From Natronococcus sp. A-GB7 (GTDB taxonomy: Archaea > Halobacteriota > Halobacteria > Halobacteriales > Natrialbaceae), in NCBI RefSeq assembly GCF_029688865.1, contig NZ_JARUKV010000035.1, positions 1-37,085 of the forward strand: a stretch of 37,085 bases of DNA, given 5' to 3'. The notes beneath the pieces were generated by a model. It was not told the DNA's origin. It ran no database searches and saw nothing but the letters and a program-made list of their open reading frames with translations. Below, piece after piece: positions 6,202 to 24,986 of this stretch. Each line of letters starts with the position of its first letter. Within the stretch, counting starts at the first letter, position 1. Position numbers and translations under genes: made by a program.

Positions 6202-7272
6202 TCACTCTTCGTCGACACGGAGTTCTCCGACGCAGTTCTCGACCGGTTCCAGCAGGTCGCCAGCGATCGAGTAGGGATCGGTTTCCCCCCGTCGGACCGA
6301 TTCGGCGAGGTCATCGATGCCGCCGGCCGCCTCGAGTTCGGCCTCGAGCATGGCGTGAACGTCCTCGCGTAACAGGGTTCGGATCTCCTCAGCGTAGCGC
6401 TGACGGACCTGTGCGGCGCGTTCGTCGGAGTCGACGAGGTACTCACGGTGGGACTCGAACTCGGCGAGTAGTTCCTCGACACCCTCACTGCGCGTGGCGA
6501 CCGTCTCGACGATAGGTGTCGTCCATCCTGTGGCTCTGTCCTCGTTGTCTCCCGGTTCCCAATCGTCGTGGGCGTCGATGACTTCTTGGCTGTGGTGATT
6601 GCCGCCACCGCTGCTGTAGCCATCGCCAGAATCGAGCAGGATCATGTCCCGGAGCTCTTGGACGGTCCGATCGGTGCCGTCGCGGTCGGCCTTGTTAACG
6701 ACGAAGACGTCCGCGATTTCGAGGATCCCTGCCTTCAGCGTCTGGATATCATCACCAGATCCCGGCGGGACGAGGACGGCGACGGTGTCGGCGGTACGGA
6801 CGATGTCGATCTCGTTCTGTCCGGCGCCGACCGTTTCGATGATGATCTTATCCTTGCCGAAAGCGTCCATCGCCTTGACGGCGTCTGCCGTCGCAGTCGA
6901 CAGCCCGCCGAGGGTCCCGCGGGCGCTCATCGAGCGGACGAAGACGTCCATATCGCCGACGGTGGATGCCATTCGAATCCGGTCGCCCAGAACGGCTCCA
7001 CCCGTAAAGGGGGAGGAGGGGTCGATCGCAATGACCCCGACGGTCTCGCCGGGCTCGCGGTAAGTCTCGGCGAGTTTATCGACTAGCGTTGACTTCCCCG
7101 CACCCGGACTCCCCGTGATGCCGATTACATCTGCCTCACCGGTGTGGGCGTACAGCTCCGAGACGAGATCCCGGTAGCCCGGCGACCGGTTTTCGATCTT
7201 CGAGATCACTCGAGCCAGCGCGCGGTGTTCGCCCGCAAGTAGCGACTCGAACAGTTCCCTGTTGGATTTCAT
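6202..7272 (-). CDS. meaB: MeaB/ArgK-type G3E GTPase chaperone of methylmalonyl-CoA mutase
   Basis: The 356-residue P-loop GTPase carries Walker A GSPGAGKS (54-61), the Mg/switch region DPSSPFTGGAVLGDRIRM (84-101), IETVGAGQNE (145-154) and the guanine-specificity motif NKAD (193-196). These define the MeaB/ArgK family, which gates cofactor B12 loading and protects methylmalonyl-CoA mutase; the old name LAO/AO transport ATPase is misleading. Relative to bacterial MeaB it has a Gly/Asp/Glu-rich insertion after about residue 215 (GDGYSSGGGNHHS and following), probably a haloadaptive loop. Its start overlaps the stop of the B12-subunit gene by 4 bases, so the two are translationally coupled, which fits a shared role. 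Confidence 0.95.
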   Translation of the reverse strand: MKSNRELFESLLAGEHRALARVISKIENRSPGYRDLVSELYAHTGEADVIGITGSPGAGKSTLVDKLAETYREPGETVGVIAIDPSSPFTGGAVLGDRIRMASTVGDMDVFVRSMSARGTLGGLSTATADAVKAMDAFGKDKIIIETVGAGQNEIDIVRTADTVAVLVPPGSGDDIQTLKAGILEIADVFVVNKADRDGTDRTVQELRDMILLDSGDGYSSGGGNHHSQEVIDAHDDWEPGDNEDRATGWTTPIVETVATRSEGVEELLAEFESHREYLVDSDERAAQVRQRYAEEIRTLLREDVHAMLEAELEAAGGIDDLAESVRRGETDPYSIAGDLLEPVENCVGELRVDEE

Positions 7273-7685
7273 CGCTCGGGGGTGTTTTCGCGGACGAATT
7301 CGATCGTCTCTTCGATCGACGTTCCGGGACCAAAGATTGCTGACACGCCCTCATCTTTGAGCGGTTGGCGGTCCTCCTCGGGAATCACGCCGCCGACGAG
7401 GACGAGCGTGTCCTCTTTCGCCCCGTACTCCTCGAGTCCGTCCATGATTTTCGGGACGAGCGTATCGTGGGCTCCCGAGAGGATGGAGATACCAAGGACG
7501 TCGACGTCCTCCTGGACGGCCGCCTGAACGATTTCGTCCGGTCCCTTGTGCAGTCCGGAGTAGATGACTTCGAAGCCAGCGTCGCGGAAGGCACGCGCGA
7601 TTACGTGGGCCCCGCGGTCGTGACCGTCGAGTCCGACTTTCGCAACCATACACCGGACACTTTGCTGATCGCTGCCAGCACTCAT
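7269..7685 (-). CDS. mcmB: Methylmalonyl-CoA mutase, B12-binding small subunit
   Basis: This 138-residue protein is a stand-alone cobalamin-binding domain. The base-off/His-on motif DxHxxG is at 20-25 (LDGHDRG), so His22 should be the lower cobalt ligand. SILSGAH and LVGGVIPEED follow as the usual S-x-L and GG cobalamin contacts. In archaea the mutase is often split, with this domain separate from the TIM-barrel subunit, which here lies at 8400-10100. It is the first gene of an operon with meaB (4-base overlap). It catalyses, with the large subunit, (R)-methylmalonyl-CoA to succinyl-CoA, the entry of propionyl units into the TCA cycle. Confidence 0.95.
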   Translation of the reverse strand: MSAGSDQQSVRCMVAKVGLDGHDRGAHVIARAFRDAGFEVIYSGLHKGPDEIVQAAVQEDVDVLGISILSGAHDTLVPKIMDGLEEYGAKEDTLVLVGGVIPEEDRQPLKDEGVSAIFGPGTSIEETIEFVRENTPER

Positions 7686-8399: not shown

Positions 8400-10100
8400 T
8401 CAGACTGGCGAGAGCTCCTCCTGATAGGCGCCGTGGTGGTCCTCGAACACTTGCATGATCTCGCCCATCGAGACGTACGCTTTCACCGCGTCGACGATGT
8501 ATGGCATGACGTTCTCGTCGTTCTCGATAGCGTCCGACAGCGCCGACAGCGTCGCGTCGACTTCCTCGTCGTCGCGTTCGTCTTTGACGCGCTCGAGGCG
8601 CTCGAGCTGGCGGTCGCGTGTCGTCTCGTCGATCTGGAGGATGTCCGGCGAGGTGTCCTCCTCGATGGTGAACTTGTTGACGCCGACGACGACCTCCTCG
8701 CCGCGCTCGACGCGCTGTTGGTACTCGTAGCTTGCCTCCCCGATCTCGCGGTGGAAGTACCCCTGCTGGATGCCGTCGAGCACGCCGTCCCGTACCGAAC
8801 CGTCGCCGATCTCCCTGATCTCCTCGATGTACTCCATGATCTCCGCCTCCATCTCGTTCGTGAGTTTCTCGATGGCGAAGCTCCCGCCCATCGGATCGAC
8901 GATGTCGGCCGCGCCCGACTCCTCGGCGATAATCTGCTGGGTTCGCAGGGCGACGCGAACGGCCTTCTCGCTGGGCAGCGCCAGTGCCTCGTCGAAGCTG
9001 TTCGTATGTAGTGACTGCGTGCCGCCGAGGACGCCGGCGAGCGCTTGGATGGTCACGCGGGCGATGTTGTTCAGCGGCTGCTGGGCGGTCAGGGACTGGC
9101 CCGCCGTCTGCGTGTGGAACTTCAGTCGCTTCGACTCGGGGCGTTCCGCGTCGTACCACTCGTCCATCACGTTCGCGTAGATGCGACGCGACGCGCGGAA
9201 CTTCGCAATCTCCTCGAAGATGGAATTGTGAGAGTTGAAGAAAAACGAGAGCAGTGGTGCGAACTCGTCGACCTCGAGCCCACGGTCGAGACAGTCCTCG
9301 ACGTAGGCGAAGCCATCGGCGAGCGTGAACGCAGCCTCCTGGGCAGCCGTCGAGCCGGCCTCGCGGATATGATACCCCGAGATCGAGACGGGGTGGAAGT
9401 TCGGCGTCTCGTCGACGGCGAACTCAATGGTGTCGGTGACGATCTTCAGTGAGGGACCCGGCGGGATCACCCATTCCTTCTGAGCGATGAACTCCTTGAG
9501 CATATCGTTCTGGAGGGTCCCGCGGACCTTATCGCGGGGGATACCCTGCTGGTCGGCCAGCGCGATATACATCGCGTAGATGACCGCCGCCGAGGGGTTA
9601 ATCGTGAACGACGTGGAGACCTCGTCGATGTCGATTCCGTCGAAGAGGATCTCCATATCTGCGAGCGTGTCCACGGCGACGCCTTCCTTCCCGACTTCGC
9701 CCTCGCTCATCGGATGGTCGGAGTCGATTCCCATCAGCGACGGCATGTCGAACGCCGTCGAGAGCCCAGTCTGGCCCTCGTCGATGAGATAGTGGAATCG
9801 TTCGTTGGTCTCTTCGGCGGTGCCGAAGCCAGCGAACTGGCGCATCGTCCATGTCCGACCGCGGTACATCGTCGGGTACGGCCCGCGCGTGTACGGCGGT
9901 TCGCCAGGGAAACCGAGATCTGCCTCGAAGTCGAGGTCGGCGATATCCTCCGGCGTATAGAGGCGGTCGACTTCATGGTTTGAAACCGTCGCGAATCGAT
10001 CCTTTCGCTCGCCATGAGCCTCGAGCGTCGGGTCGAGCGTTTCGTCTTCCCACTGCTCCTGTTGCTCGCGGATGTCCTCGAGCTCGGTATGGTCGAACAT
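8400..10100 (-). CDS. mcmA: Methylmalonyl-CoA mutase, large (TIM-barrel) subunit
   Basis: The 566-residue protein covers the substrate-binding TIM barrel of methylmalonyl-CoA mutase without the B12 domain, as expected for the split archaeal form. Recognisable blocks are GPYPTMYRGRTWTMRQFAGFG near the N-terminus, with the conserved Tyr and Arg that contact substrate; TAFDMPSLMGIDSDHP; GTLQNDMLKEFIAQ; ISGYHIREAGSTAAQE, with the catalytic His; and the C-terminal GGTQSLHTNSFDEALALPS. A related reading is isobutyryl-CoA mutase or a 2-hydroxyisobutyryl-CoA mutase large subunit, which share this fold. The nearby MeaB and small subunit make methylmalonyl-CoA the best choice. It probably has its own promoter (10123-10131) and diverges from a UspA gene. 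Confidence 0.95.
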   Translation of the reverse strand: MFDHTELEDIREQQEQWEDETLDPTLEAHGERKDRFATVSNHEVDRLYTPEDIADLDFEADLGFPGEPPYTRGPYPTMYRGRTWTMRQFAGFGTAEETNERFHYLIDEGQTGLSTAFDMPSLMGIDSDHPMSEGEVGKEGVAVDTLADMEILFDGIDIDEVSTSFTINPSAAVIYAMYIALADQQGIPRDKVRGTLQNDMLKEFIAQKEWVIPPGPSLKIVTDTIEFAVDETPNFHPVSISGYHIREAGSTAAQEAAFTLADGFAYVEDCLDRGLEVDEFAPLLSFFFNSHNSIFEEIAKFRASRRIYANVMDEWYDAERPESKRLKFHTQTAGQSLTAQQPLNNIARVTIQALAGVLGGTQSLHTNSFDEALALPSEKAVRVALRTQQIIAEESGAADIVDPMGGSFAIEKLTNEMEAEIMEYIEEIREIGDGSVRDGVLDGIQQGYFHREIGEASYEYQQRVERGEEVVVGVNKFTIEEDTSPDILQIDETTRDRQLERLERVKDERDDEEVDATLSALSDAIENDENVMPYIVDAVKAYVSMGEIMQVFEDHHGAYQEELSPV

Positions 10101-10230: not shown

Positions 10231-10251
10231 ACGGTGAGTCGATTGTCAGAT

Positions 10252-10686
10252 ATGCACACGATCTTGCTCCCAATAGACGAGAATGAGACGCGGTCGCGGC
10301 GGGCGGCCCGAACCGTCATCGATCTTCCCGGCGACCCCGAAGAGAAGGCGGTTGTCCTCCTCAACGTCTCCGAGGAGACGAAACAGCCCTGGTTACAGGA
10401 GTTCGAGAGCCAGCGAGCGGAGGGACGAGACGATCCCGAGTTGCCGGCTAGCACGGAGGCAGCGCGAGAACTCCTCGCGGAGGCCGGCATCGACGTGGAG
10501 ACGCGACTGGAGCAGGGCGACATCACCGAGAAGATTCTGTCAGTTGCCGAGGAGATCGACGCGAACAGTATCGTCATGAGCGGACGGAAGAAGAGCGCGG
10601 CCGGAAAGGTGCTCTTCGGCAGCGTCACTCAGTCGGTGTTGCTCAGCGCCGATCGGCCCGTCACCGTGTTGATGAGCGACGACTGA
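10252..10686 (+). CDS. Universal stress protein, UspA family
   Basis: This 144-residue protein is a single UspA domain. It begins MHTILLPIDENETRSRRAA, the usual first strand with the ATP-site Asp, and ends with GRKKSAAGKVLFGSVTQSVL, the G-x-x-x...G-x(9)-G-S/T nucleotide-binding loop; VTVLM follows as the last strand. ATP-binding Usp proteins act as cytoplasmic dimers in stress response; no specific partner can be named. I start at the ATG at 10252 because the family begins at that strand. It diverges from the mutase gene with about 150 bases between them. Confidence 0.9.
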   Translation: MHTILLPIDENETRSRRAARTVIDLPGDPEEKAVVLLNVSEETKQPWLQEFESQRAEGRDDPELPASTEAARELLAEAGIDVETRLEQGDITEKILSVAEEIDANSIVMSGRKKSAAGKVLFGSVTQSVLLSADRPVTVLMSDD

Positions 10687-10993: not shown

Positions 10994-12658
10994 TTACCAG
11001 GGCTGGATGCCCCACCAGAGGATCGGGAGCATGAGCACGGCGAGGATGATCAGCGGCATCGCGCTGTTAAAGCGCTCGGTGCCGTCGTCGGGATAGCCGT
11101 GCATCTCGTTGATCAGCGACGCGTTGTCAACCGGCTTGACGTCGAGCGAATCGATTCGTTCGGCGACGAGCGAGACGACCACGAACGTGATGATCGATAG
11201 CGGGAACGCGATCATGATTGCATCGATTCCCAGATCGGCGGTCAGCCCTTCGGCTCCGGCTCCGATCCCACCGAGCGCGTGTGGCGAAAGGATAACGACG
11301 GCAAAGAAGCCGACGATGCTCGAGGCCACTGCCCCGTACCGGTTCACGCGAGCGGACCAGACGCCGAGCACGATTACCGGGGTGATCGCAGCGGCGCTGA
11401 CGGCGAACGCCCAAAGGATACTGACGACGAGGAACGCGGGCGGGTTCAGCGCAATGAGCGCGATGATCAGCCCGGCCGCGATGACGGACGCGTAGCCAGC
11501 CTGGGTCTTGCGGTCTTCCGTGATCTCGAGTTCGAAGGCCTCGATGACGTCGTTCGCAACGGCGGCACTGATCGCGAGCATGTGACCGCTAACGGTCGAC
11601 AGCCCGCCGGCGATTGCCCCCGCGACGACGTAACCGGTGATCGAGTTGCCGCTGAACGCGAAGTTGAGATAGAAGATCATCTTGTCGAAATCGGCCTCGG
11701 CGACCTCGAACCCTTCCTGACCGAGCCACATGACGCCGGCGAACGCGACGGAGTAGATCGTCGCGAACATCAGGCCCGTCACGGCGACGAACCAGAAGAC
11801 GGTCTTCCGGCCGGCTTCGACGTCACGGCTCGTGAAGATGCGCTGTGCCAGGTGGGGCATTCCGACCGGACCCAGCGCCATCGCCAGGAACATGGCGAAG
11901 TACCACCGGGTATCGAACGTCATGTCGAAGAAGCCCGGATTGGTCTCTTCCATCTGCGGGACGAGATCACCGTATCCAAGCGGCGGGAAGAACCAACCGC
12001 TCGATCCGAGCTGATTGAGAACGATCATCATCGGGAAGAACGCCGCCGTCAGCATAATCCAGAACTGTAGGGCGGAGTTGTATGAGACGCCCCACATCCC
12101 GGCGATGACGACGTACCCTGTCACGAGCGCCGCGATGACGAACAGTGAGAGGGTGTAGTCCCAGCCAAACAGGATCTCGGTGATCTGTGCGAGGCCGATG
12201 AACTGCCCCAGCGCGTACATCAACATGACGAATACGATGAGCAGCGCCATCACGACGGACATCGTATTGCCGTACCGATCCTTACAGAACGTCGCCGGCG
12301 TGTACGAGCCGAGCCGGCGCAGCGTCTGACCGTACAGGATGACGATCAGCGGGATCGAAAGCAGGAAGTTAGTCCAGACGGCCAGAAACGGGATCTGGAC
12401 CTGCACCATCAGGGCGACGACGCCCATAAACGTCGCCAGACTCTCCCAAGTCGCGGAGATTGCGGAGCCGTTGACGAACGGACCAATGGTCCGGCCGGCG
12501 ACCATGTAGTCGTCCGTCCCCTTGATCCGGTTTTTCATGTAGTAGCTGATCCCGTAATAGGCGACGAACGTGAGACCAATGATGGTCAGCGGGATGAGGA
12601 GTTCGGTGAACGTCTCCTGAAACGGGTATTCCCCCACTTGCTGAAGCGGCTTAATCAT
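10994..12658 (-). CDS. Sodium:solute symporter (SSS family, acetate/monocarboxylate type)
   Basis: This 554-residue integral membrane protein has about 13 hydrophobic segments and the SSS fold. Family features include the Na-site region VNGSAISATWESLATFMG, the loop GPVGMPHLAQRIFTSRDVEAGRK resembling the ActP motif GTPHxxxRFxT, and GGLSTVSGHMLAISAAVANDV. This places it closer to acetate, pyruvate or other monocarboxylate permeases than to proline or panthenate carriers. I start at the ATG at 12658 (MIKPLQQVGEYPF) because it overlaps the stop of the upstream small-subunit gene by 8 bases, a coupled arrangement. With two 2-haloacid dehalogenases just upstream on the same strand, a short (halo)acid is the inferred cargo. 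Confidence 0.9.
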   Translation of the reverse strand: MIKPLQQVGEYPFQETFTELLIPLTIIGLTFVAYYGISYYMKNRIKGTDDYMVAGRTIGPFVNGSAISATWESLATFMGVVALMVQVQIPFLAVWTNFLLSIPLIVILYGQTLRRLGSYTPATFCKDRYGNTMSVVMALLIVFVMLMYALGQFIGLAQITEILFGWDYTLSLFVIAALVTGYVVIAGMWGVSYNSALQFWIMLTAAFFPMMIVLNQLGSSGWFFPPLGYGDLVPQMEETNPGFFDMTFDTRWYFAMFLAMALGPVGMPHLAQRIFTSRDVEAGRKTVFWFVAVTGLMFATIYSVAFAGVMWLGQEGFEVAEADFDKMIFYLNFAFSGNSITGYVVAGAIAGGLSTVSGHMLAISAAVANDVIEAFELEITEDRKTQAGYASVIAAGLIIALIALNPPAFLVVSILWAFAVSAAAITPVIVLGVWSARVNRYGAVASSIVGFFAVVILSPHALGGIGAGAEGLTADLGIDAIMIAFPLSIITFVVVSLVAERIDSLDVKPVDNASLINEMHGYPDDGTERFNSAMPLIILAVLMLPILWWGIQPW

Positions 12659-12953
12659 CGGTATCACCCGGTTCCGCACCGACCTCGTCGGTTCCACTTG
12701 CGTCGCCTACGGATGCGTTCAGTTGCTCTTTTTCGTCCATGATCGAGGTGGTGACATACTGATAGTACCCCCAATACAGGACGAACATCGCTGCCGGCCC
12801 ACCAGCCACCATCCAGAAGTAGTGGAACGGGAATCCCAGTACTCTGAAGTCTGGTGTTCCGAACATGGTGAACCAGATCCCTGAGTGGATCACACCAATG
12901 AGTGCCAACGCAGCAATCAGTGATGCGAGTGCTTCCTTGGTATGAGTCTGCAT
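12651..12953 (-). CDS. Small membrane partner of the sodium:solute symporter
   Basis: The 100-residue protein has two predicted transmembrane segments (about residues 8-27 and 44-65: ALASLIAALALIGVIH and FWMVAGGPAAMFVLYWGYY) and an acidic tail ending TDEVGAEPGDTDD. Two-helix proteins of this size precede SSS genes in many prokaryotes (YjcH/DUF485 before ActP; DUF4212 and DUF3311 relatives), and this one overlaps the symporter by 8 bases. I did not assign a single Pfam family. The ATG at 12953 is chosen because GAGGTGA, a good ribosome site, ends about six bases before it; the longer reading from 12977 would put that site inside the gene. Confidence 0.8.
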   Translation of the reverse strand: MQTHTKEALASLIAALALIGVIHSGIWFTMFGTPDFRVLGFPFHYFWMVAGGPAAMFVLYWGYYQYVTTSIMDEKEQLNASVGDASGTDEVGAEPGDTDD

Positions 12954-12974
12954 ACACTTCACCTCGTCATAATG

Positions 12975-12994
12975 CAAGTATTAAGCTCTTATGC
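12975..12994 (-). promoter_or_regulatory. AT-rich promoter region of the symporter operon
   Basis: The minus strand reads GGCATAAGAGCTTAATACTT. Either CTTAATACT (about 27 bases before the ATG at 12953) or GCATAAGAG further out could be the TATA box. The second choice leaves a short leader that contains the GAGGTGA ribosome site. Confidence 0.4.
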
Positions 12995-13162: not shown

Positions 13163-13852
13163 CTATTCCTCGAGAGCGTCCACGAGGTCGTGAAACGTCT
13201 CAATCACCAGGTTCGGTTCACTGCCGAACGGATCCCAGACTCCGTCCCGTCGGTCGATCTACACCCCTTGCATACCGGCGTGCATCGCGCCCTGGACGTC
13301 GAAGGAGGGGCCAGCGATGTGAGCAATCGACTCGATCGGGGTTCCTGTCCGGTCCGCAGCGTGACGGTAAATCTCGACCGCGGGTTTGAACCGCTGAATC
13401 TCGTGGGCGCTGATCGTGTCGGCGACGATGTCCTCGATTTCTGCCGTGTCGATCATCGACTCGAGCATCTCAGGGTTCCCGTTTGAGAGGACGTAGACTG
13501 AGTAGCCGGCATCGGTGAGTGCCTCAAGTCCGCTCTGAACGTCGTCGAACGGATCGAGGTCATGATAAGTGGAGAGGATCCCGTCAATCGTCTCCGTGGG
13601 GAGGTCGATCCCGTGGCTCTCGAGCGCGTGTTGGAGCGCGTCGCGGTTCATCTCATAGAATGGCTGATAGGTGTCGGTGAAGTTGCCGACCATCGTGTAC
13701 ATGAGCGAGCGAGCCCGCCAGTGATTGGAGATCGAGGTTATCGATTCCTCGTCGACGTATTTGGCGAGAGTCGCTTCGACGGCGGACGGATCGACGAGTG
13801 TCTCATAGGAGTCGACGGTCACCGTCTCGACTGCGGTCGGATTGAACGACAT
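13163..13852 (-). pseudogene. 2-haloacid dehalogenase, HAD type II, interrupted by an in-frame amber codon
   Basis: The frame from 13852 encodes a HAD-superfamily 2-haloacid dehalogenase: nucleophile Asp14 in TVDSYETLVD, Arg46/Arg48 in HWRARSLMYT, Ser123-Asn124 in VLSNGNPEML, Lys156 and Tyr162 in RFKPAVEIY, and Asp185 in GPSFDVQGAMHAGM. After GMQGV (residue 197) comes TAG at 13259-13261, then the same frame continues as IDRRDGVWDPFG and through FHDLVDALEE to a second TAG at 13163-13165. Relatives carry Trp here (GVW.NR), so TGG to TAG is the simplest cause. The product would stop at 197 of 229 residues, losing the last strand and helix. It may be a pseudogene, partly active, or a base-call error. 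It lies 76 bases after the DehI gene. Confidence 0.8.
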
Positions 13853-13876
13853 ACGAAAGGAGTTCACCGTCGCCCC

Positions 13877-13886
13877 GTATATAGTG
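13877..13886 (-). promoter_or_regulatory. TATA-like promoter of the HAD dehalogenase gene
   Basis: The minus strand reads CACTATATAC, centred about 29 bases before the ATG at 13852. The gene therefore seems to have its own start in addition to any read-through from the DehI gene. Confidence 0.5.
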
Positions 13887-13928
13887 TGCTCTGACAACGT
13901 TGGTCACTAACGACCAGAACACGTCGCC

Positions 13929-14813
13929 TCAGCCGAACGAGCGCGGTCCGGCGACGTTGACCGTCGCCGCGTATGTTGGCAGTGCCGGAATCACGGTTTC
14001 GATAGGTCCACGATTGAAGTCGCGGAACAGGTCCTGTAGGTCCCTGACAACCTCGTCGTCCAACCCTCGCTGCTCGAGTGAGTCGGGGTCGATCTTCGGT
14101 ACGTAGGTGATTGAATCGACAAACGCCTCGACCGCCGACCGAGCGTTATCGACCGCAGTGGAGAACGCGTCGCTCCGGCAGACCGGCTCGACGGCGTTCC
14201 ACATTGGATTCAGGTAGCCGGGCCACTGCGCGAGCGTCCGATAAATGCTCGGGAGCCCCTCTTCGAGTCCGTGAAACGATTGAATGGACGAGACGGTGTC
14301 AGCCAGTTCGTCCGGCGGGTCGTCGAACGCAATCAGTGTCGGTGGCCGTCCGCGGTCGGCGTCGAGCCAGGTCGGGAGTGGCGCTGTCGCGTCGCGTGTA
14401 CGGTCGGGATCGGTTCCGATCGGCTCACCATGGAGTCCCCTATCGACGAGTTCGAAGAGGACCGCAAGCCGGGGTGCGACGACGTCGTACGTCGCGAGTT
14501 GTCCCTTGAGTTCGCCGAACTCGGCTGGCGAAACGTCGAGCTCATCGAACCGGAGGGATGGAACGGAGGCGTTCGCCTCGAGCGCCGAGAGGACGGTATC
14601 TCGATAGGAGACTGTGAACTGACCGAACCGTCGGGTCTCGAACACCGGCTTGACCTGTGCCCAGGCGTACCGAAGGAACGCTGGGTAGTTCGCGATCGTT
14701 GTTCGGAAGATCCAATTGACGATCGGAGCTCGGAACGTGTGCATGATGTCGTCATAGAGGCCGCGTTCCCAGCCCGTCGCCTCCTGCTCGTACACCTGTT
14801 TGCTCCGGTCCAT
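13929..14813 (-). CDS. DehI-family 2-haloacid dehalogenase
   Basis: The 294-residue protein matches the group I haloacid dehalogenase (DehI) family in length and motif. DehI enzymes are all-helical pseudo-dimers, and both halves show: YPAFLRYAWAQVKPVFETRR (about 43-62) mirrors WPGYLNPMWNAVEPVCRSDA (197-216). HGLEEGLPSIYRTLAQWPGYL fits the family stretch near the active site. DehI enzymes hydrolyse D- and L-2-haloacids, such as 2-chloropropionate, to 2-hydroxyacids with inversion and without a covalent intermediate, unlike the HAD type encoded next door. I could not place the catalytic Asp with certainty. It precedes the HAD gene and the symporter operon on the same strand, suggesting a haloacid-use locus. 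Confidence 0.85.
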   Translation of the reverse strand: MDRSKQVYEQEATGWERGLYDDIMHTFRAPIVNWIFRTTIANYPAFLRYAWAQVKPVFETRRFGQFTVSYRDTVLSALEANASVPSLRFDELDVSPAEFGELKGQLATYDVVAPRLAVLFELVDRGLHGEPIGTDPDRTRDATAPLPTWLDADRGRPPTLIAFDDPPDELADTVSSIQSFHGLEEGLPSIYRTLAQWPGYLNPMWNAVEPVCRSDAFSTAVDNARSAVEAFVDSITYVPKIDPDSLEQRGLDDEVVRDLQDLFRDFNRGPIETVIPALPTYAATVNVAGPRSFG

Positions 14814-14974: not shown

Positions 14975-16606
14975 ATGGGTGTGGATTACTCTGCCACAGT
15001 CGAGGAGTTCGAATGGGACATTCCCAAATCGTATACCGTCACCTCCGTCATCGAGGACTACTCTAACGAGATCGGTGATCGCGTCGCTGTCAAGTATTTG
15101 AACGAGGAAGGCGACCGATCTGAGCGGACCTATGCCGACCTCTGCGACGAGATGAACCGGTTCGCAAACGGGCTCGAGGAACTCGGCGTTAGCAAGGGCG
15201 ATCGAGTGATGCACCTCTTCCCCCGCCATCCCGACGCATTTGCGATTCAGCTGGGTGCCCTTTCAGTCGGTGCACTGCTCGTCCCCTGCTCGTCGATGCT
15301 TCGGGCAAAGGATATCGAGTTCCGCGCGAACGACTGCGACGCCTCGACCGTCGTCGTTCACGAGTCGCTGACCGACATGGTCGAACCAGTTTTCGACGAC
15401 ACTCCCCTTGAGCGCGTCATCGTCCTCGACGGCGACGGTAACACCGGGGACGAGCAGTGGTCGACGTTTGAGTCGGTCGTCGACGGCCAGTCGACCGAGT
15501 ACGACGGCCCCGACCTCGGCGCTGCCGATCCGATGTCGATCAACTACACCAGCGGCACGACCGGCCAGCCGAAACCGGTCCTCCACAAGCACCGCTGGAT
15601 GTACTGCTTCAACGCGGTCAATGCGCCGTACTGGTGGGGTGTCGACGAAGATACCGACCTCGACGACGAACTCCTGTGGGCGACGACCGGTACCGGCTGG
15701 GCGAAGTGGTTCTGGAGTCCGGTCGGCGTCGGCCTCACGACCGGCGCGACGCAGCTCATCTACGACGGTGACTTCGAGCCTGAGACCTTCCTCGAACTCC
15801 TCGAGGACGAGGGCGTTACCAAGCTCTGTGCTGTCCCGACCCAGTATCGGATGTTCGCGAACGCCGACCTCGAGTCGTACAACGTACAGCTCAACGACAC
15901 GCTCTCGGCTGGCGAACCGCTCAACCGCGAGCCGATCGAACGCATCGAGGAAGCCTGGGGTGTGACGCCGCGCGACGGCTACGGCCAGACCGAGACCGTT
16001 GCCCTCGTGACGAACTATCCGGGCATCGACATCAAGCCCGGCAGCATGGGGAAACCGACGCCAGGTGTCGGCGCGACAATCATTGACACGCAGGACGAGG
16101 AAGAGGTCGAGGAGGGCGAGATCGGCGAGATCGCGGTCCCCGTCGACTCGCCGGCGATCTTCGACGGCTACTACGAGAAGCCCGAACTCGACGAGCAGAA
16201 GCTCTCGGGCGACTACTATCGGACTGGTGACCTGGCCTCGCAGGACGAGGAAGGCTACTTCTTCTTCGAGGGACGGGCGGACGACATCATCATCTCGTCG
16301 GGCTACCGAATCGGCCCCTTCGAGGTTGAGGACGCGCTCGTCAGCCACGACGCCGTTGCCGAGGCCGCCGTGGTCGACAGTCCTCATGACGAGCGAGGGA
16401 GTGTCGTCAAAGCCTACACCATTCTTGCCGACGGATATGACGGTAGTGACGATCTCAAGGACGAACTCCAAGGGTTCATGAAGGAAGAGACGGCCCCGTA
16501 CAAGTATCCCCGACGCATCGAATTCGTCGATGAACTCCCGAAGACCTCGAGCGGGAAGATTCGTCGCGTCGAGCTCCGCGAACAGGAACAGGAGAAACAC
16601 GCGTAG
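14975..16606 (+). CDS. AMP-forming acyl-CoA synthetase (medium/short-chain type)
   Basis: This 543-residue adenylate-forming enzyme activates a carboxylic acid to its acyl-CoA through an acyl-AMP. The P-loop YTSGTTGQPKPV is at 191-202; DGYGQTETVALV is the A5 motif; YYRTGDLASQDEEGYFFFEG is A7; GRADDIIISSGYRIGPFEVE is A8; and the catalytic Lys528 is in PKTSSGKIRRVELR. The sequence between A3 and A5 (WATTGTGWAKWFWSPVG) resembles the MACS/medium-chain group rather than acetyl-CoA synthetase. It diverges from the haloacid genes and converges on the thioesterase operon. A role in activating the acids handled by nearby dehydrogenases is inferred. Confidence 0.93.
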   Translation: MGVDYSATVEEFEWDIPKSYTVTSVIEDYSNEIGDRVAVKYLNEEGDRSERTYADLCDEMNRFANGLEELGVSKGDRVMHLFPRHPDAFAIQLGALSVGALLVPCSSMLRAKDIEFRANDCDASTVVVHESLTDMVEPVFDDTPLERVIVLDGDGNTGDEQWSTFESVVDGQSTEYDGPDLGAADPMSINYTSGTTGQPKPVLHKHRWMYCFNAVNAPYWWGVDEDTDLDDELLWATTGTGWAKWFWSPVGVGLTTGATQLIYDGDFEPETFLELLEDEGVTKLCAVPTQYRMFANADLESYNVQLNDTLSAGEPLNREPIERIEEAWGVTPRDGYGQTETVALVTNYPGIDIKPGSMGKPTPGVGATIIDTQDEEEVEEGEIGEIAVPVDSPAIFDGYYEKPELDEQKLSGDYYRTGDLASQDEEGYFFFEGRADDIIISSGYRIGPFEVEDALVSHDAVAEAAVVDSPHDERGSVVKAYTILADGYDGSDDLKDELQGFMKEETAPYKYPRRIEFVDELPKTSSGKIRRVELREQEQEKHA

Positions 16607-16744: not shown

Positions 16745-17161
16745 TTAGGCGTCCCCGCGTTCGCGAATGCACTCGTGGATCTCCTCAGGGAGCGGTGCCG
16801 CGTCAAACGAGCCATCAACGAAGACAAACGACACCTCGCCGTCGGCGACGGGTTCATCGGTCTCGGCTCGTATGACGGTGAAGGCGAGCGTCAGCGAGGC
16901 GGTGCCGCTATCGACGACGGTCGTCTCGATCACGACCTCATCACCCGCGCGGAGGGGAGAGTGAAATGACGCCGATGCCTCGACGGCGGGGAGGACGTAA
17001 CTGGCCTTCCGATACGTCTCCATCAAATGCTCACCGTCAGTCGCGAGCGTGAAGTAGTCGTTCAACCCGACGATGACAAAGTGAAAGAACCGTGGGTGAT
17101 AGATGAGACCGCCCGCGTCGGTATCGCCCCAGTCGATAGTGATGGGTGTTCTGTGTGGCAT
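16745..17161 (-). CDS. Hot-dog acyl-CoA thioesterase (4-hydroxybenzoyl-CoA thioesterase type)
   Basis: The 138-residue protein begins MPHRTPITIDWGDTDAGGLI and then YHPRFFHFV, matching the 4HBT/YbgC pattern WGDxDxxGxxYxPxYF; Asp15 is the expected catalytic residue. Such enzymes hydrolyse acyl- or aryl-CoA to acid and CoA. The longer open frame to 17272 runs into the upstream gene and reads like non-coding sequence, so the ATG at 17161 is preferred. It lies one base after the stop of the DUF35 gene and is the last gene of the thiolase operon. A role in recycling CoA from stalled intermediates is possible. Confidence 0.87.
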   Translation of the reverse strand: MPHRTPITIDWGDTDAGGLIYHPRFFHFVIVGLNDYFTLATDGEHLMETYRKASYVLPAVEASASFHSPLRAGDEVVIETTVVDSGTASLTLAFTVIRAETDEPVADGEVSFVFVDGSFDAAPLPEEIHECIRERGDA

Positions 17162-17162
17162 G

Positions 17163-17543
17163 TCAAGGTCGGAAGGCGATCGTTCGCTCGTCGGTTGTCT
17201 CGGTCTCGGTAACGGTCGCGGTGACCTCCAGACCTCGTTCGACGTCAGCCGGTTCGACCCCCAGCAGGACACCGGTCACCCTGACCGAGCCGAACGTTGC
17301 GATCGCCGTGACGTACGGCGCGTCGTCCTCGAATCGCGGCGTCGGAACCGTGACGGTCGTGTACGTGACGATCTTACCCCTCGTTAGGAGTGGCTCGCTC
17401 TCGAGGTCACGGTCACCACAGTGGGGGCAAACACGACGCGGCGGCAGCGTCCCGTGGCCGTTCGAACACGTATAATAATAGCCGTCATCGGTCTCGAGCG
17501 CGTCGAGGAAGTCATCGTAGCTGCCGTCGCAGGAGTCGCTCAC
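17163..17543 (-). CDS. Zn-ribbon OB-fold protein (DUF35 family), thiolase partner
   Basis: This 126-residue protein joins an N-terminal rubredoxin-like zinc ribbon, with Cys26, Cys39 and Cys42 (YTCSNGHGTLPP, VCPHCG) and His30 possibly the fourth ligand, to an OB fold from about residue 52 (GKIVTYTTVTVPTPRFEDDAP). In archaea DUF35 proteins bridge thiolase and HMG-CoA synthase and share the CoA site; others pair with SCP2-type thiolases. Its ATG overlaps the thiolase stop by 4 bases, so the pair is translationally coupled. No HMG-CoA synthase is adjacent, which argues for a degradative thiolase complex. The Cys-x3-His first half of the ribbon is unusual against the common CxxC. Confidence 0.9.
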   Translation of the reverse strand: MSDSCDGSYDDFLDALETDDGYYYTCSNGHGTLPPRRVCPHCGDRDLESEPLLTRGKIVTYTTVTVPTPRFEDDAPYVTAIATFGSVRVTGVLLGVEPADVERGLEVTATVTETETTDERTIAFRP

Positions 17544-18709
17544 GTAACCACCTCCAACACGTGAACAGTCGCACTGGCGACCGTTCCGCCGGCGTTGTGT
17601 GCGAGTCCGACGGTCGCGTCGTCGCCCAGCGCGTCCGAGCGTGGATGGGTTCCCTCAAGCAGAGTCCGAACGCCCGCGATCTGCGCTGCACCCGTAGCGC
17701 CGACGGGGTGTCCCTTTGCCTTGAGTCCACCCGAAAGGTTGATCGGGAGTTCGCCGTCGCGGCGAGTCTCTCCACGACGTGCGGCACCCACAGCTTCGCC
17801 GTATCCGTACAGCCCGAGGCCCTCGAGTGCGAGGACCTCAGCGATTGTGAAACAGTCATGAACCTCCGCGAACGCGACGTCCGACGGGGAGATCTCTGCG
17901 TCGTCGTACGCTTCTGTGGCGGCTTCCCGCGTAGCTGGTGTCTTCGCCAGCGATCGCCGGTCTTGGAGAGCCATCGTATCGCCGCCGTGGCCGGTCCCTG
18001 TGATCGCAACGCCAGTATCGAGCCCGTGTTCGGCGGCGTACAACGGGGATACCAGAACGACGGCGGCCGCACCGTCGCTGATCGGGCAGGAGTCGTACAG
18101 GCCGAACGGCGCCGCGAGCTCCGGCGCCTCGAGGACGTCGTCAACCGCAATCTCTTCTCGGAGATGGGCGTGGTCGTTGACGAGCGCGTTGTCATGGTTC
18201 TTGACGGCGACGTGAGCGAGGTCTTTGCGATCGCCACCGAACGCGTTGAAGTACGCGCGCGCCATCAGCGCGTAGGCCGCTGGGAACGTAACGCCGGACC
18301 GCACTTCGAAGAGCTCGTCGGCAGCGCGGGCCAGTCCATCGGTCGCCCCCTCGGTTCCCATGTTGCTCATCCGTTCCATTCCGCCAGCCACGACGATATC
18401 GGACTCGCCGCTCCGGACAGCCCGGACCGCGTCGCGGACCGCCAGTCCGCTTGAGGCACACGCGCTCTCGACGCGTCTCGACGGCGCGGTCGTACCCAGC
18501 GCTTCAGCGGCGAGTGGTCCCTGGTGACCCTGTCGCTCCGACAGCGATCCGAGGAAGTTGCCGTAGAACACCTCGTCGATGTCGTCGGGATCGATTCCGG
18601 CGTCCGAGAGTGCGGAGAGCCCGGCCTCTGCGAACAGTTCTCGCCCCGATCGATTGGGGAACGATCCGAACGGAGTCGTGCCTGATCCGGCGATGAATGC
18701 CTTCGACAT
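17540..18709 (-). CDS. Thiolase (acetyl-CoA acetyltransferase / 3-ketoacyl-CoA thiolase, SCP2-like)
   Basis: The 389-residue enzyme has the thiolase fold. The nucleophile Cys84 lies in ESACASSGLAV, the partner His284 in AEVHDCFTIAE, and His334 in GGLKAKGHPVGATG. The usual C-terminal CxG is replaced by GLAHNAGGTVASAT, as in archaeal and SCP2-type thiolases that work with a DUF35 protein. It would cleave 3-ketoacyl-CoA to acetyl-CoA and a shorter acyl-CoA, or run the reverse condensation. It is first in the thiolase-DUF35-thioesterase operon and diverges from the hydroxyacyl-CoA dehydrogenase gene, so the last two steps of beta-oxidation share one intergenic region. Confidence 0.92.
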   Translation of the reverse strand: MSKAFIAGSGTTPFGSFPNRSGRELFAEAGLSALSDAGIDPDDIDEVFYGNFLGSLSERQGHQGPLAAEALGTTAPSRRVESACASSGLAVRDAVRAVRSGESDIVVAGGMERMSNMGTEGATDGLARAADELFEVRSGVTFPAAYALMARAYFNAFGGDRKDLAHVAVKNHDNALVNDHAHLREEIAVDDVLEAPELAAPFGLYDSCPISDGAAAVVLVSPLYAAEHGLDTGVAITGTGHGGDTMALQDRRSLAKTPATREAATEAYDDAEISPSDVAFAEVHDCFTIAEVLALEGLGLYGYGEAVGAARRGETRRDGELPINLSGGLKAKGHPVGATGAAQIAGVRTLLEGTHPRSDALGDDATVGLAHNAGGTVASATVHVLEVVT

Positions 18710-18823: not shown

Positions 18824-19677
18824 ATGTCTATAGAGCGGATCGACCGCGTCGGCGTCGTCGGCGCGGGTACGATGGGCAATGGTATTGCACAGGTGGCCGC
18901 TACACACGGATACGACGTCGTGATGCGGGACATCAAGGAGGAGTTCGTCGAGAGCGGCTTCGAGAACATCGACGATAGCCTCGATCGCCTCGCGAACCGA
19001 GACGCGCTCGAGGAGGGTCCCGAGGCGATCCGCGACCGGATCGAAGGGACGACCGCACTCGAGGACCTCGAGGACTGCGACCTCGTCGTTGAGGCCGCGC
19101 TCGAGGACCTCGAGGTTAAGCGGGACATCTTCGACGACCTCGAGGACGTGTGTGAGGAAGATGCCGTGCTGGCGACGAACACGAGCACGCTCTCGATCAC
19201 CTCGATCGCCGCGGATCTTGAGCGGCCCGAGCGCGTGATCGGCCTGCACTTCATGAATCCTGTACCGATCATGGAGGGTGTCGAAGTCGTCGTCGGCGAG
19301 AAAACGACGGGCGATGTCGTCGACCTTGCACACGAGGTAGCCGAGGACCTCGAGAAGACGACGTGGCAGTCCGACGACAAACCGGGCTTCGTAACGAACC
19401 GAATCCTGATGCCATGGATCAACGAGGGAATTCGTGCCTATGAGAGGGCGTCGCGACGAAGGAGGACATCGACGCCGGCATGGAACTCGGGACGAACGTC
19501 CCGATGGGACCACTCACGCTGGCGGATCACATCGGCCTCGATATCTGTCTGCATGCCTCCGAGACGTTACATGAGGAACTCGGAGATCGGTACAAACCTG
19601 CGTATCTGCTCAAGCGGAAGGTCGAGGCCGACGACCTCGGGAAGAAGACCGGGAAGGGGTTTTACGAGCACGACTGA
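18824..19677 (+). pseudogene. 3-hydroxyacyl-CoA dehydrogenase, frameshifted
   Basis: The first frame gives an NAD-binding fold with GVVGAGTMGNGIA (10-22), NTSTLSITSIA (119-129) and the catalytic His142 and Asn145 in LHFMNPVPIMEG, up to GIRAYE (about 207). It then loses sense. Adding one base after TATGAG near 19446 restores EEGVATKEDIDAGMELGTNV and PMGPLTLADHIGLD to the natural end GKGFYEHD at 19677, for a 284-residue protein of normal length. As written, translation would lack the C-terminal dimerisation and substrate domain. The enzyme oxidises (S)-3-hydroxyacyl-CoA with NAD. The sequence otherwise shows no decay, so a recent mutation or an assembly error is likely. Confidence 0.88.
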
Positions 19678-19706
19678 GATCGTAAGAAGCGACTGTCAGC
19701 GGTGTT

Positions 19707-20840
19707 TCACCGCTTGAGATGTCGAGCGATGATCTTCTGCTGGATCTCGGAGGTCCCCTCGTAGATCGTCGTAATCTTGGCGTCGCGATAGTAGCGTTCG
19801 ACGTCGAAATCCTTCGTATAGCCGTAGCCGCCGTGAATCTGGACCGCTTCGTTCGCTACGTCGACCGCCGTCTCGCTCGCAAAGTACTTCGCCATGGCTG
19901 CTGCCTTCGGATCGACGCCGTTGTCGTTCTTTCTCGCTGCGTCTCGAGTGAGTAACCGGGCTGCCTGTACGTCCGTCTGCATATCGGCAAGCTTGTGACC
20001 GATGGCCTGATGTTCGATGATGGGCTGTCCGAACTGCTCGCGGTCGTTCGCGTAGGTGATCGAGTCGTCGAGGGCCGCCTGTGCAACGCCGACGGCCTGA
20101 CTTGCGATCGCGATCCGGCCGCCGGTCAGGATCGAGAAGGCGGACTTGAGTCCCTCGCCGACTTCAGTCAGGCGGTTCTCGGCCGGAATCCGGACATCGT
20201 CGAAGATCAGCGTCGTCGTGTCGCTAGCTCGCAACCCGAGTTTGTCCTCCTTCTTGCCGACCTCAAGGCCATCGACGTTCTTGGGGACGAGGAACTGGGT
20301 GACGCTGTCGGGGTCGTCCCGGTCGGTCTTGGCGAACAAGATAACGACGCCTGCTCGCTCGCCATTCGTGATCCACTGTTTCTTGCCGTTGATGACGAAC
20401 TCGTCGCCCTCGGGACGCGCCTCGGTTGTCATCTCAGCCGGGTTCGAGCCGGCATCGGGTTCCGACAGCGCGAACGCACCGACGGGCCGACCCGAGACCA
20501 TGTCCGGGAGCCACTCCTCCTTGCGTTCCTCGGATCCAAACTGGCTGATACACGACGTTGCGAGACAGTGAACGGATAACGCCGTCGCGACGGCGAGGTG
20601 ACCGTACGCGAGTTCCTCGTTGACGAGGCTATACGTCGGCGTATCGACGTCGAGGCCGCCATACTCCTCTGGTGTTGTCATCCCAGTGAGATCGAGGTCT
20701 GCGAGTCCGTCCCAGATGTCCTCCGGAAATTCTTGGCTCTTGTCGGCCTCGTGGACGTCCGTTCCGACCTCGTTCTCGACGAACTCTCGGACCGTGTTCC
20801 TGATGAGTTCCTGTTCACCAGTGAGCTCTATGAGTCCCAT
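19707..20840 (-). CDS. Acyl-CoA dehydrogenase (second copy)
   Basis: This 377-residue flavoprotein is related to, but clearly different from, the one at 5035. It shows VGAFALSEPDAGSNPAEM (120-137), the FAD and acyl-CoA signature, REQFGQPIIEHQAIGHKLADM, and the catalytic base Glu361 in TIYEGTSEIQQKIIARHL. I start at the ATG at 20840 (MGLIELTGEQELIR) because it sits at the normal ACAD N-terminus and a TATA-like box lies 27 bases upstream; the frame extends to 20900 with no family similarity. It converges on the hydroxyacyl-CoA dehydrogenase and diverges from an enoyl-CoA hydratase gene. Chain-length preference cannot be read from the sequence. Confidence 0.93.
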   Translation of the reverse strand: MGLIELTGEQELIRNTVREFVENEVGTDVHEADKSQEFPEDIWDGLADLDLTGMTTPEEYGGLDVDTPTYSLVNEELAYGHLAVATALSVHCLATSCISQFGSEERKEEWLPDMVSGRPVGAFALSEPDAGSNPAEMTTEARPEGDEFVINGKKQWITNGERAGVVILFAKTDRDDPDSVTQFLVPKNVDGLEVGKKEDKLGLRASDTTTLIFDDVRIPAENRLTEVGEGLKSAFSILTGGRIAIASQAVGVAQAALDDSITYANDREQFGQPIIEHQAIGHKLADMQTDVQAARLLTRDAARKNDNGVDPKAAAMAKYFASETAVDVANEAVQIHGGYGYTKDFDVERYYRDAKITTIYEGTSEIQQKIIARHLKR

Positions 20841-20862
20841 GCGAGGGTCATTCGCGAGGCCG

Positions 20863-20871
20863 TTACTAAAG
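20863..20871 (-). promoter_or_regulatory. TATA-like promoter of the second acyl-CoA dehydrogenase gene
   Basis: The minus strand reads CTTTAGTAA, centred 27 bases before the ATG at 20840. It resembles the mutase box CTTTAGAAT at 10123-10131. Confidence 0.45.
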
Positions 20872-20922
20872 TGTGGCAGCTCTCGCCTCCGAACTATCAC
20901 TCGACGAGACTGACCGGTAATA

Positions 20923-20952: not shown

Positions 20953-21741
20953 GTGCACGATTACGACAACCTGTCCGTCGATCGCGACGACGGCATCGCG
21001 ACGGTCACGCTCGACAGCACTGCCGGACGGAACGCGCTCACCCTCGAAATGGCCGACGAACTGGTGTCGGTCGCGACGACACTGGGAGATGACCGGGACG
21101 TGCGATGCATCGTTCTGACGCATACGGGGGATTTCTTCGGCACCGGGGCCGACCTCTCGCAGTTCTCGGGTAACGAATCGGACGCGCCCCTGCTGCGGGA
21201 GCTGGCGGGCCGTGCCCACGAAGCGATCGTTCAGTTCCACCGGACGGAAACGCCGGTCATCGGCGGCATCATCGGCGTCGCCGCCGGAATCGGATTCAGT
21301 CTGGCCCTCATGCCTGATCTGGTCGTACTCGGTGAGGACGCGACACTGAAGTACGCTTACTCAGGAATCGGGCTGACCGGAGACGGTGGTGCGACGTTCT
21401 TCCTGCCGCGACTTGTCGGCCTCCGGACCGCAAAGGAGATCGTCCTCCGAGATAAGCCGATCCCCGCCGAGGAAGCCGTCGAACTCGGTCTCGCGGCCGA
21501 GGTTGCTCCCGCGGGCGAGTTCGGCGGCCGACTGGACGCAGTCGCCGCCGAACTCGCCGCCGGACCAACGCGCGCGCTCGGGTCGGCAACGCGGTTGCTC
21601 ACCGATAGCTACGAGCGGAGCCTCGAGTCGCAGCTGGCCGCCGAGGTAGATGCTATCGCGGCGGCGACGCGGACAGAAGACTATGAGCGCGGTCTCGAGG
21701 CGTTCTTCGGTGACGGCGATCCCGAGTTCGTGGGTCGATAG
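20953..21741 (+). CDS. Enoyl-CoA hydratase/isomerase (crotonase family)
   Basis: The 262-residue crotonase-fold protein shows the oxyanion pieces GDFFGTGADLSQF (59-71) and GIIGVAAGIGFSLALMPDLV (105-123), then IPAEEAVELGLAAEV. In classic hydratases the loop reads PE..LG..PG.GG, with a catalytic Glu; here it is YSGIGLTGDGGATFFLPRLVG, so that Glu is absent. This is common in isomerase or PaaG-like branches, and the exact reaction is therefore uncertain. Translation seems to start at GTG 20953 because no ATG fits and a TATA-like box is well placed. It is divergent from the acyl-CoA dehydrogenase gene. Confidence 0.87.
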   Translation: MHDYDNLSVDRDDGIATVTLDSTAGRNALTLEMADELVSVATTLGDDRDVRCIVLTHTGDFFGTGADLSQFSGNESDAPLLRELAGRAHEAIVQFHRTETPVIGGIIGVAAGIGFSLALMPDLVVLGEDATLKYAYSGIGLTGDGGATFFLPRLVGLRTAKEIVLRDKPIPAEEAVELGLAAEVAPAGEFGGRLDAVAAELAAGPTRALGSATRLLTDSYERSLESQLAAEVDAIAAATRTEDYERGLEAFFGDGDPEFVGR

Positions 21742-24208: not shown

Positions 24209-24986
24209 GGCACTGTATAGTTCTGCGCCTCTTCGGCTGGCGCGGCACCGTCTAGTTAGCGCGGTTTGAGAAACGAGCAGGTCATAGAGCTAGTTTGGCT
24301 ATGACGCTCGCAGACCTGCTCAGCGAGTGCTACGCGGCGGAATTTGATGAAGCTTGGGAGCGCGAGCGGACGGCGACGCCCGTCAGGGTGTTCGCCGTCC
24401 GCCTCCACGCGACCGGGTGTTCTCTCCGAGAGACACAATCGATTCTTCGCTTGATCGGCGTCAAGCGATCTCATCAAGCAATCTGGAACTGGGTACATCG
24501 GCTGGCTGACAGCGTTTCAGACCCGCCGACGGCGAAGCCCTCGCGGGTCGCCATTGATGAAACCGCTGTCAGGATTAACGGTGACTGGTCTTGGGTGTAC
24601 GCTGCAATAGATGTAGACTCTAGACTCATTCTCGATGTCGCAGTGTTCGGACGACGAGGCACCGATCCAGCCGCTGCGTTTCTGCATCGATTAACCGAGA
24701 AACACGATCTCTCCGAGACTGTGTTTCTCGTCGATGGCTACGGCTATCTGACTGCCCTCTCTCGATTAGGGTTGAGCGGTCAGCTCGACTACGTTGATCG
24801 AAACCTGATCGAAAAGTGGTTTCACGCCTTCAAGATGCGAGTTGACCGCTTCCATAACTCGTGGGTGGGCAGTCGGGCGAGCGTCAGGGAACGGCTTGAA
24901 GAGTTCGTACACTATTATAACACACAACGACCGCACCAAGCACTCAACGGACAAACGCCAGCGGAGGTGCTAAACTAGACAGTGCC
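24209..24986 (+). mobile_element. IS6-family insertion sequence (haloarchaeal type)
   Basis: The element is bounded by imperfect inverted repeats: left GGCACTGTATAGTTCTGCGC from 24209, and right, read on the minus strand from 24986, GGCACTGTCTAGTTTAGCAC; 17 of 21 positions agree. GGCACTGT is the classical IS6/IS26 tip. The 8 bases outside the ends (CTCACTGT and TTATAGAT) do not match, so no target duplication is left. A second left-end-like sequence, GGCACCGTCTAGTTAGCGCG, lies at 24244 and matches the right tip at 13 of its first 14 bases. Confidence 0.85.
24301..24978 (+). CDS. IS6-family DDE transposase
   Basis: The 225-residue transposase carries an N-terminal helix-turn-helix (TGCSLRETQSILRLIGVKRSHQAI) and the DDE catalytic core: Asp86 in VAIDETAVRING, Asp145 in FLVDGYGYL, and Glu171-Lys172 in DRNLIEKWFHAFKMR. 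The end, YYNTQRPHQALNGQTPAEVL, is typical of IS6 transposases. Length is full and no stop or shift is seen, so it may be active. IS6 elements move by replicative transposition through cointegrates. The ATG at 24301 is preferred over the TTG two codons upstream. It sits at the border between the G+C-rich block and the low-G+C island. Confidence 0.93.
   Translation: MTLADLLSECYAAEFDEAWERERTATPVRVFAVRLHATGCSLRETQSILRLIGVKRSHQAIWNWVHRLADSVSDPPTAKPSRVAIDETAVRINGDWSWVYAAIDVDSRLILDVAVFGRRGTDPAAAFLHRLTEKHDLSETVFLVDGYGYLTALSRLGLSGQLDYVDRNLIEKWFHAFKMRVDRFHNSWVGSRASVRERLEEFVHYYNTQRPHQALNGQTPAEVLN

Follow-up and report, generated by a model that had tools for sequence, protein, structure and literature searches.

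The group I 2-haloacid dehalogenases include DehI of P. putida PP3, HadD AJ1 and DL-DEX Mb. In HadD, Asp205 and Asn131 are both needed: the D205N variant is inactive, and the activity of N131D is reduced by about 96% (PMC5780510). The same work described five residues as highly conserved between the D- and DL-enzymes (PMC5780510). Among the dehalogenases of HAD type II, such as L-DEX YL or DehIVa, nine residues are essential in L-DEX (PMC4899344), and the nine-residue motif of L-2-haloacid dehalogenases has been given as DTRSKYSND for group A and DTF(S/T)KYAHD for group B (PMC8490876). Regarding the uptake of small acids by haloarchaea, Haloferax volcanii has an ssf gene that shares its transcript with acs, uspA and a small gene, and acetate is taken up through it (PMC7746861). 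Isobutyryl-CoA mutase, the B12-dependent enzyme of interest below, was described in 2010 as known only from bacteria (PMC2847961). Among the papers searched, none dealt with both 2-haloacid dehalogenase and haloarchaea.

The DNA analyzed here, referred to as the window, is a whole contig of 37 kb from a haloarchaeal genome. Its minus strand carries, in this order, a DehI-family open reading frame (13929-14813, 294 aa), a HAD type II gene (13163-13852), a DUF4212-like gene (12651-12977) and an SSF-family symporter gene (10994-12697); the DehI-type, HAD-type and symporter genes thus lie in series on one strand, as an earlier note on this DNA had described. We propose, with a probability of roughly 0.55, that the locus is a haloarchaeal cluster, plasmid-borne in the relatives named below, that serves to import and degrade a short carboxylic acid, probably a branched one, with the DehI-like and HAD proteins in accessory roles. 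We infer both the pathway and the substrate from the gene families present.

The DehI-like protein is matched by PF10778 with an E value of 5.6e-35 (121 bits, cut-off 28.9), and phmmer gives HadD AJ1 and DL-DEX Mb as its nearest solved sequences. An AlphaFold2 model (mean pLDDT 93) confirmed the two-repeat alpha-helical fold (Foldseek E 3.4e-11), and VIA-align superposed 279 residues of this model on HadD (Z 27.0, rmsd 3.1), so that the family put forward in the earlier note and the DehI fold are both well supported. VIA-align found no second fold family above background, the AhpD core reaching a Z of 2.9 over 56 residues, a result that excludes nothing. DehI has also been listed among the families with a 6_1 knot (PMC11184937). 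The likeness to DehI, HadD and DL-DEX includes the PF10778 profile, the length, the two-repeat all-helical architecture and the Ser beside the catalytic position, and public annotation labels the haloarchaeal proteins as DehI family. Together with the profile match of the HAD gene, this family match favors the reading of the earlier note, namely a self-contained 2-haloacid locus where the symporter would bring in D- and L-2-haloacids for conversion by the DehI and HAD proteins.

Unlike in these enzymes, the catalytic residues are missing. The segment SDYKAMARWP of HadD aligns without gaps with SIYRTLAQWP in the window, placing Ile190 at the catalytic Asp (Asp205 in HadD, Asp189 in DehI), and GNPKY of HadD corresponds to VAPRL, with Ala113 at the Asn131 position. 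The equivalents of Trp48 and Tyr134 are lost as well, and Ser204 is the only one of the five conserved residues named in the HadD paper to be kept. Of the 392 genomes sampled from the order, 60 carry DehI-like genes, and the Asp is retained in none of the readable haloarchaeal homologues, the column being Ile or Val in 57 of 57 rows; both Asp and Asn are kept in two bacterial plasmid homologues and in the two solved enzymes (WNYSD or WN-TD). In the tree the haloarchaeal proteins group as one clade (100/99) on a long branch, apart from the two solved enzymes. This clade has invariant residues of its own, as an alignment of 30 members shows 41 positions that never vary (Arg28, Asn33, Arg37, Asp110, Arg115, His181, Arg192 and Gln196 among them), and its distribution was restricted to haloarchaea in the samples searched: a 393-genome sample of the phylum gave matches only within the order of the window, and a tblastn search of plasmids, using the window protein as query, returned haloarchaea only. 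The dN/dS of the gene against its orthologues ranges from 0.14 to 0.21. The invariant positions and the single clade show a family under constraint and not in decay, whose conservation makes it a good target for study. The DehI-like protein is thus a member of a separate conserved haloarchaeal clade that has kept the DehI fold and lost the water-activating Asp/Asn pair. Having lost this pair, the protein would be unable to use the known DehI mechanism, which speaks against its assignment as a 2-haloacid dehalogenase and, since the pair is missing in all readable haloarchaeal homologues, against a haloacid locus in general. If the proteins bearing the DehI family name cannot dehalogenate, claims of haloacid use in haloarchaea that are based on that name would be mistaken, leaving a conserved family of known fold without a known reaction.

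Two other roles can be considered for such a protein. It might be a hydrolase of small alpha-substituted acids in which the catalytic acid has moved to another invariant residue (e.g., Asp110 or His181), with the HAD and DehI-like proteins each taking one enantiomer of a shared substrate, non-halogenated or unusual, such as an epoxy or hydroxy acid. The 41 invariant positions (with Asp110, His181 and several Arg), the dN/dS of about 0.2, the recurrent pairing with the HAD gene and the fact that the HAD protein keeps both its Asp nucleophile and the DxYGT Tyr are consistent with this; to our knowledge, a moved catalytic acid has no precedent in the DehI family, and we regard this role as rather unlikely. 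The loss of both catalytic residues would also suit a pseudoenzyme, that is, a non-catalytic binder or scaffold, e.g., a regulator or chaperone of acyl-CoA/B12 metabolism, and the mutase neighbors of both isobutyryl-CoA and methylmalonyl-CoA type, as well as a cobalamin biosynthesis cluster in Haladaptatus, point in the same direction. The remaining neighbors, however, depend on the lineage, and a scaffolding role alone would hardly explain why charged residues are invariant; we regard a pseudoenzyme as unlikely.

The HAD gene, whose start was set by comparison with intact orthologues, scores 137.9 bits with TIGR01428 (cut-off 125.4), but it is not one open frame: an in-frame TAG at 13259-13261 precedes by 31 codons the stop at 13163, which the earlier note took as the end of the gene. 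Trp occupies the TAG position in 16 of 16 other HAD proteins encoded near haloarchaeal DehI-like genes, and the 31 codons past the TAG still align with the HAD family; the earlier note had therefore read through a stop, and while its family assignment stands, the intact frame does not. Recoding of the TAG as pyrrolysine was considered and set aside, as no PylS scored above cut-off in the genome and a stop is the simpler reading. Long-term decay of the gene finds no support in its dN/dS against orthologues (about 0.2), and the low value suggests that the TAG is either recent or an assembly error. Compared with L-DEX YL and DehIVa, which share the profile, the positions Asp10, Thr14, Arg41, Ser118, Lys151, Tyr157 and Asp180 are kept, whereas Ser175 is replaced by Ala and Asn177 by Pro, besides the premature stop of the window copy. 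The nine-residue motif reads DTRSKYAPD in the window protein and its cluster orthologues, which is neither group A nor group B; at the two variable places, other haloarchaeal copies mostly show T/S/A/G followed by G/L/I/A/P. Since group B carries Ala in place of the Ser, this exchange can go along with activity; a Pro or Gly replacing the Asn fits neither group. Motif I is DSYETL in the window and DSYGTL in the others, the Glu for Gly being found in the window copy only. The second position of this motif is Tyr, as in dehalogenases; HAD phosphatases carry Asp there. The Tyr makes it still plausible that the intact relatives are carbon-attacking hydrolases. The HAD protein is a DxYGT-type hydrolase, truncated in the window genome. 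Its family departs throughout from both published dehalogenase signatures, and the haloacid function claimed for the HAD gene is doubtful for the family.

A second lesion lies in the 3-hydroxyacyl-CoA dehydrogenase gene (HCDH; 18824-19718, plus strand), which is frameshifted near 19444, the conserved C-terminal part (EGVATKEDIDAGMELGTNVPMGPL) being in another frame than the N-terminal part (PF02737, E 6.5e-60). In view of this frameshift besides the HAD stop, the cluster may be decaying in the window genome. The window copy may be a decaying remnant, or the stop and the frameshift may be assembly errors; both lesions lie on one contig of a 77-contig assembly, and the other eight congeneric genomes gave no DehI match. 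The other cluster genes look intact, on the other hand, and the dN/dS of the HAD gene is as low as that of the DehI-like gene, so that any decay would have to be recent. Decay or assembly error might account for the two lesions, with the balance tilting slightly against it; in either case this concerns the window strain only and has no bearing on what the cluster does in its relatives.

The symporter (PF00474, E 2.3e-43; NCBIfam profiles) is nearest to carboxylate-type SSF models, all of them below cut-off; with the equivalog model of the acetate symporter ActP (TIGR02711) it scores 104 bits, the cut-off being 1099. The DUF4212-like gene, coding for a small membrane protein, precedes it and was recognized by a weak Pfam match below the gathering score; in relatives this gene is kept next to the SSF gene. 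A universal stress protein gene (10234-10686, plus strand, PF00582) and an AMP-forming acyl-CoA synthetase gene (14975-16606, plus strand, divergent from the DehI-like gene) complete a set resembling acs7-HVO_A0155-ssf-uspA28 of Haloferax volcanii, where an SSF symporter, a small protein gene, a Usp and an AMP-forming synthetase also occur together (PMC7746861). The window differs from the Haloferax operon in having the Usp and synthetase genes on the other strand, in adding the DehI-like and HAD genes, and in its MbcS-like synthetase. The association of synthetase and symporter noticed earlier therefore holds as neighborhood, but the synthetase, being on the opposite strand, lies outside the minus-strand operon.

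The cluster further contains a B12-dependent acyl-CoA mutase (large subunit, 8400-10100, minus strand, TIGR00641), accompanied by its B12-binding small subunit (7272-7685, minus strand, PF02310) and a MeaB-type GTPase chaperone (6205-7272, minus strand, PF03308). Among solved proteins, the mutase is closest to 2-hydroxyisobutyryl-CoA mutase (HCM; 4r3u), with 617 bits; human methylmalonyl-CoA mutase (MCM) reaches 475. At three positions which we take to set the substrate, the window mutase has Phe/Ala/Gln, compared with Tyr/Ala/Arg in MCM and Ile/Asp/Gln in HCM; presumably, Tyr89 and Arg207 of MCM lie at the substrate carboxylate, Ile90 and Asp117 are the substrate-setting residues of HCM, and Phe and Gln are those found in isobutyryl-CoA mutase. 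The window enzyme thus has Phe and Gln in place of the MCM pair Tyr89/Arg207, and Phe and Ala in place of the HCM pair Ile90/Asp117. Separate large and small subunits and the Gln replacing Arg207 of MCM are shared with HCM and presumably with isobutyryl-CoA mutase; the Phe and Ala set it apart from HCM. Judging from these residues by comparison with MCM and HCM, the mutase appears to be isobutyryl-CoA-mutase-like, and the Phe/Ala/Gln signature is common to all window-type clusters.

Around the mutase are found the synthetase, whose best model is MbcS, for branched short-chain acids (NF047394, 590 bits, below its cut-off of 850), acyl-CoA dehydrogenases (profile match at 19707-20900, minus strand), an enoyl-CoA hydratase/isomerase (20953-21741, plus strand, profile match), an SCP2-like thiolase (17540-18709, minus strand, Pfam and NCBIfam profiles) with its OB-fold/zinc-ribbon partner of ChsH2_C type (17163-17543, minus strand, Pfam), a 4HBT-type acyl-CoA thioesterase (16745-17272, minus strand, Pfam) and the frameshifted HCDH gene. 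In the pathway we propose, the SSF symporter and its small partner would import the acid and the synthetase would form the CoA ester; the isobutyryl-CoA-mutase-type enzyme, with its large subunit, B12 subunit and MeaB chaperone, would then straighten the carbon skeleton, and the acyl-CoA dehydrogenase, hydratase, 3-hydroxyacyl-CoA dehydrogenase and thiolase would complete beta-oxidation. The DehI-like protein would most likely bind one of the small carboxylates or acyl groups that occur in the pathway, either performing a different chemistry with its own invariant residues or acting as a binding partner. The cluster predicts the growth of Natronorubrum and its relatives on branched short-chain acids, through a kind of B12 mutase which, up to 2010, had been described from bacteria alone. 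Tentatively, and against the odds, the haloarchaeal DehI-fold proteins may even constitute a new enzyme family, in which the fold has been reused for another reaction on short branched acids, often together with a HAD hydrolase of a third, undescribed signature, within an archaeal isobutyryl-CoA-mutase pathway. A self-contained haloacid locus, on the contrary, is at odds with the gene content of the cluster, as the neighboring genes belong to branched short-chain acyl-CoA breakdown and the link to haloacids runs only through family names.

Within the order sample, five further Natrialbaceae genomes have the gene order of the window, and a sixth has it without the HAD gene; it is also present on plasmids of Natronorubrum and Haloterrigena. 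Plasmid unnamed2 of N. bangense carries a matching annotated set with the HAD and 3-hydroxybutyryl-CoA dehydrogenase genes unbroken; the DehI-like and HAD proteins of this species are WP_006067324.1 and WP_006067325.1. The conservation of the order that the earlier note had anticipated is thus real. Close HAD homologues, usually a single copy, are present in 272 of the 392 genomes, and more often where there is a DehI-like gene (58/60 vs. 214/332 of the others; Fisher p 3e-8, uncorrected for phylogeny). Of 61 loci with a DehI-like gene, 16 have a HAD gene next to it, and these fall into three separate parts of the DehI tree. One is the window-type cluster; in the second, other Natrialbaceae have the two genes as a divergent pair, and in the third, family f4 has them paired on the same strand. 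Chance adjacency was rejected on these numbers, given about one HAD gene per genome. The conserved order and the recurrent adjacency would agree with a joint action on haloacids, but one genome (G232) keeps the cluster and the DehI-like gene with no close HAD match anywhere, and with the active-site and neighborhood evidence above we consider the 2-haloacid locus very improbable. Another genome (G256) has HAD, DUF4212, SSF and mutase genes together with no DehI gene nearby. From these two genomes, the HAD-DehI pair appears linked but separable, the DehI-like protein also living outside the pathway. Many haloarchaea carry a DehI-like gene without a window-type cluster, and its other neighbors differ by lineage; a role confined to branched acids is therefore not a necessary assumption.

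Some further observations concern these neighborhoods. In four genomes of one family (L081, L083, L085, L086; f17), the DehI-like gene lies within about 50 bases of a methylmalonyl-CoA mutase gene on the opposite strand, and this mutase has normal MCM residues. On plasmid unnamed5 of Haladaptatus caseinilyticus (L137), it comes directly after a cobalamin biosynthesis cluster, a hint of a B12 link. The window genome has a second mutase of the Phe type (G000:C1:38684-40372; L162, L164), 82% identical and with no symporter, HAD or DehI gene nearby, and a third one (L163) with 60% identity. The contig also contains an IS240-type DDE transposase gene (24301-24975, plus strand), in keeping with a mobile region. 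Finally, in three related genomes (L059, L069, L073), a 233-aa protein is encoded closely before the DehI-like gene on the same strand, and by eye it looks like a metallo-beta-lactamase fold.
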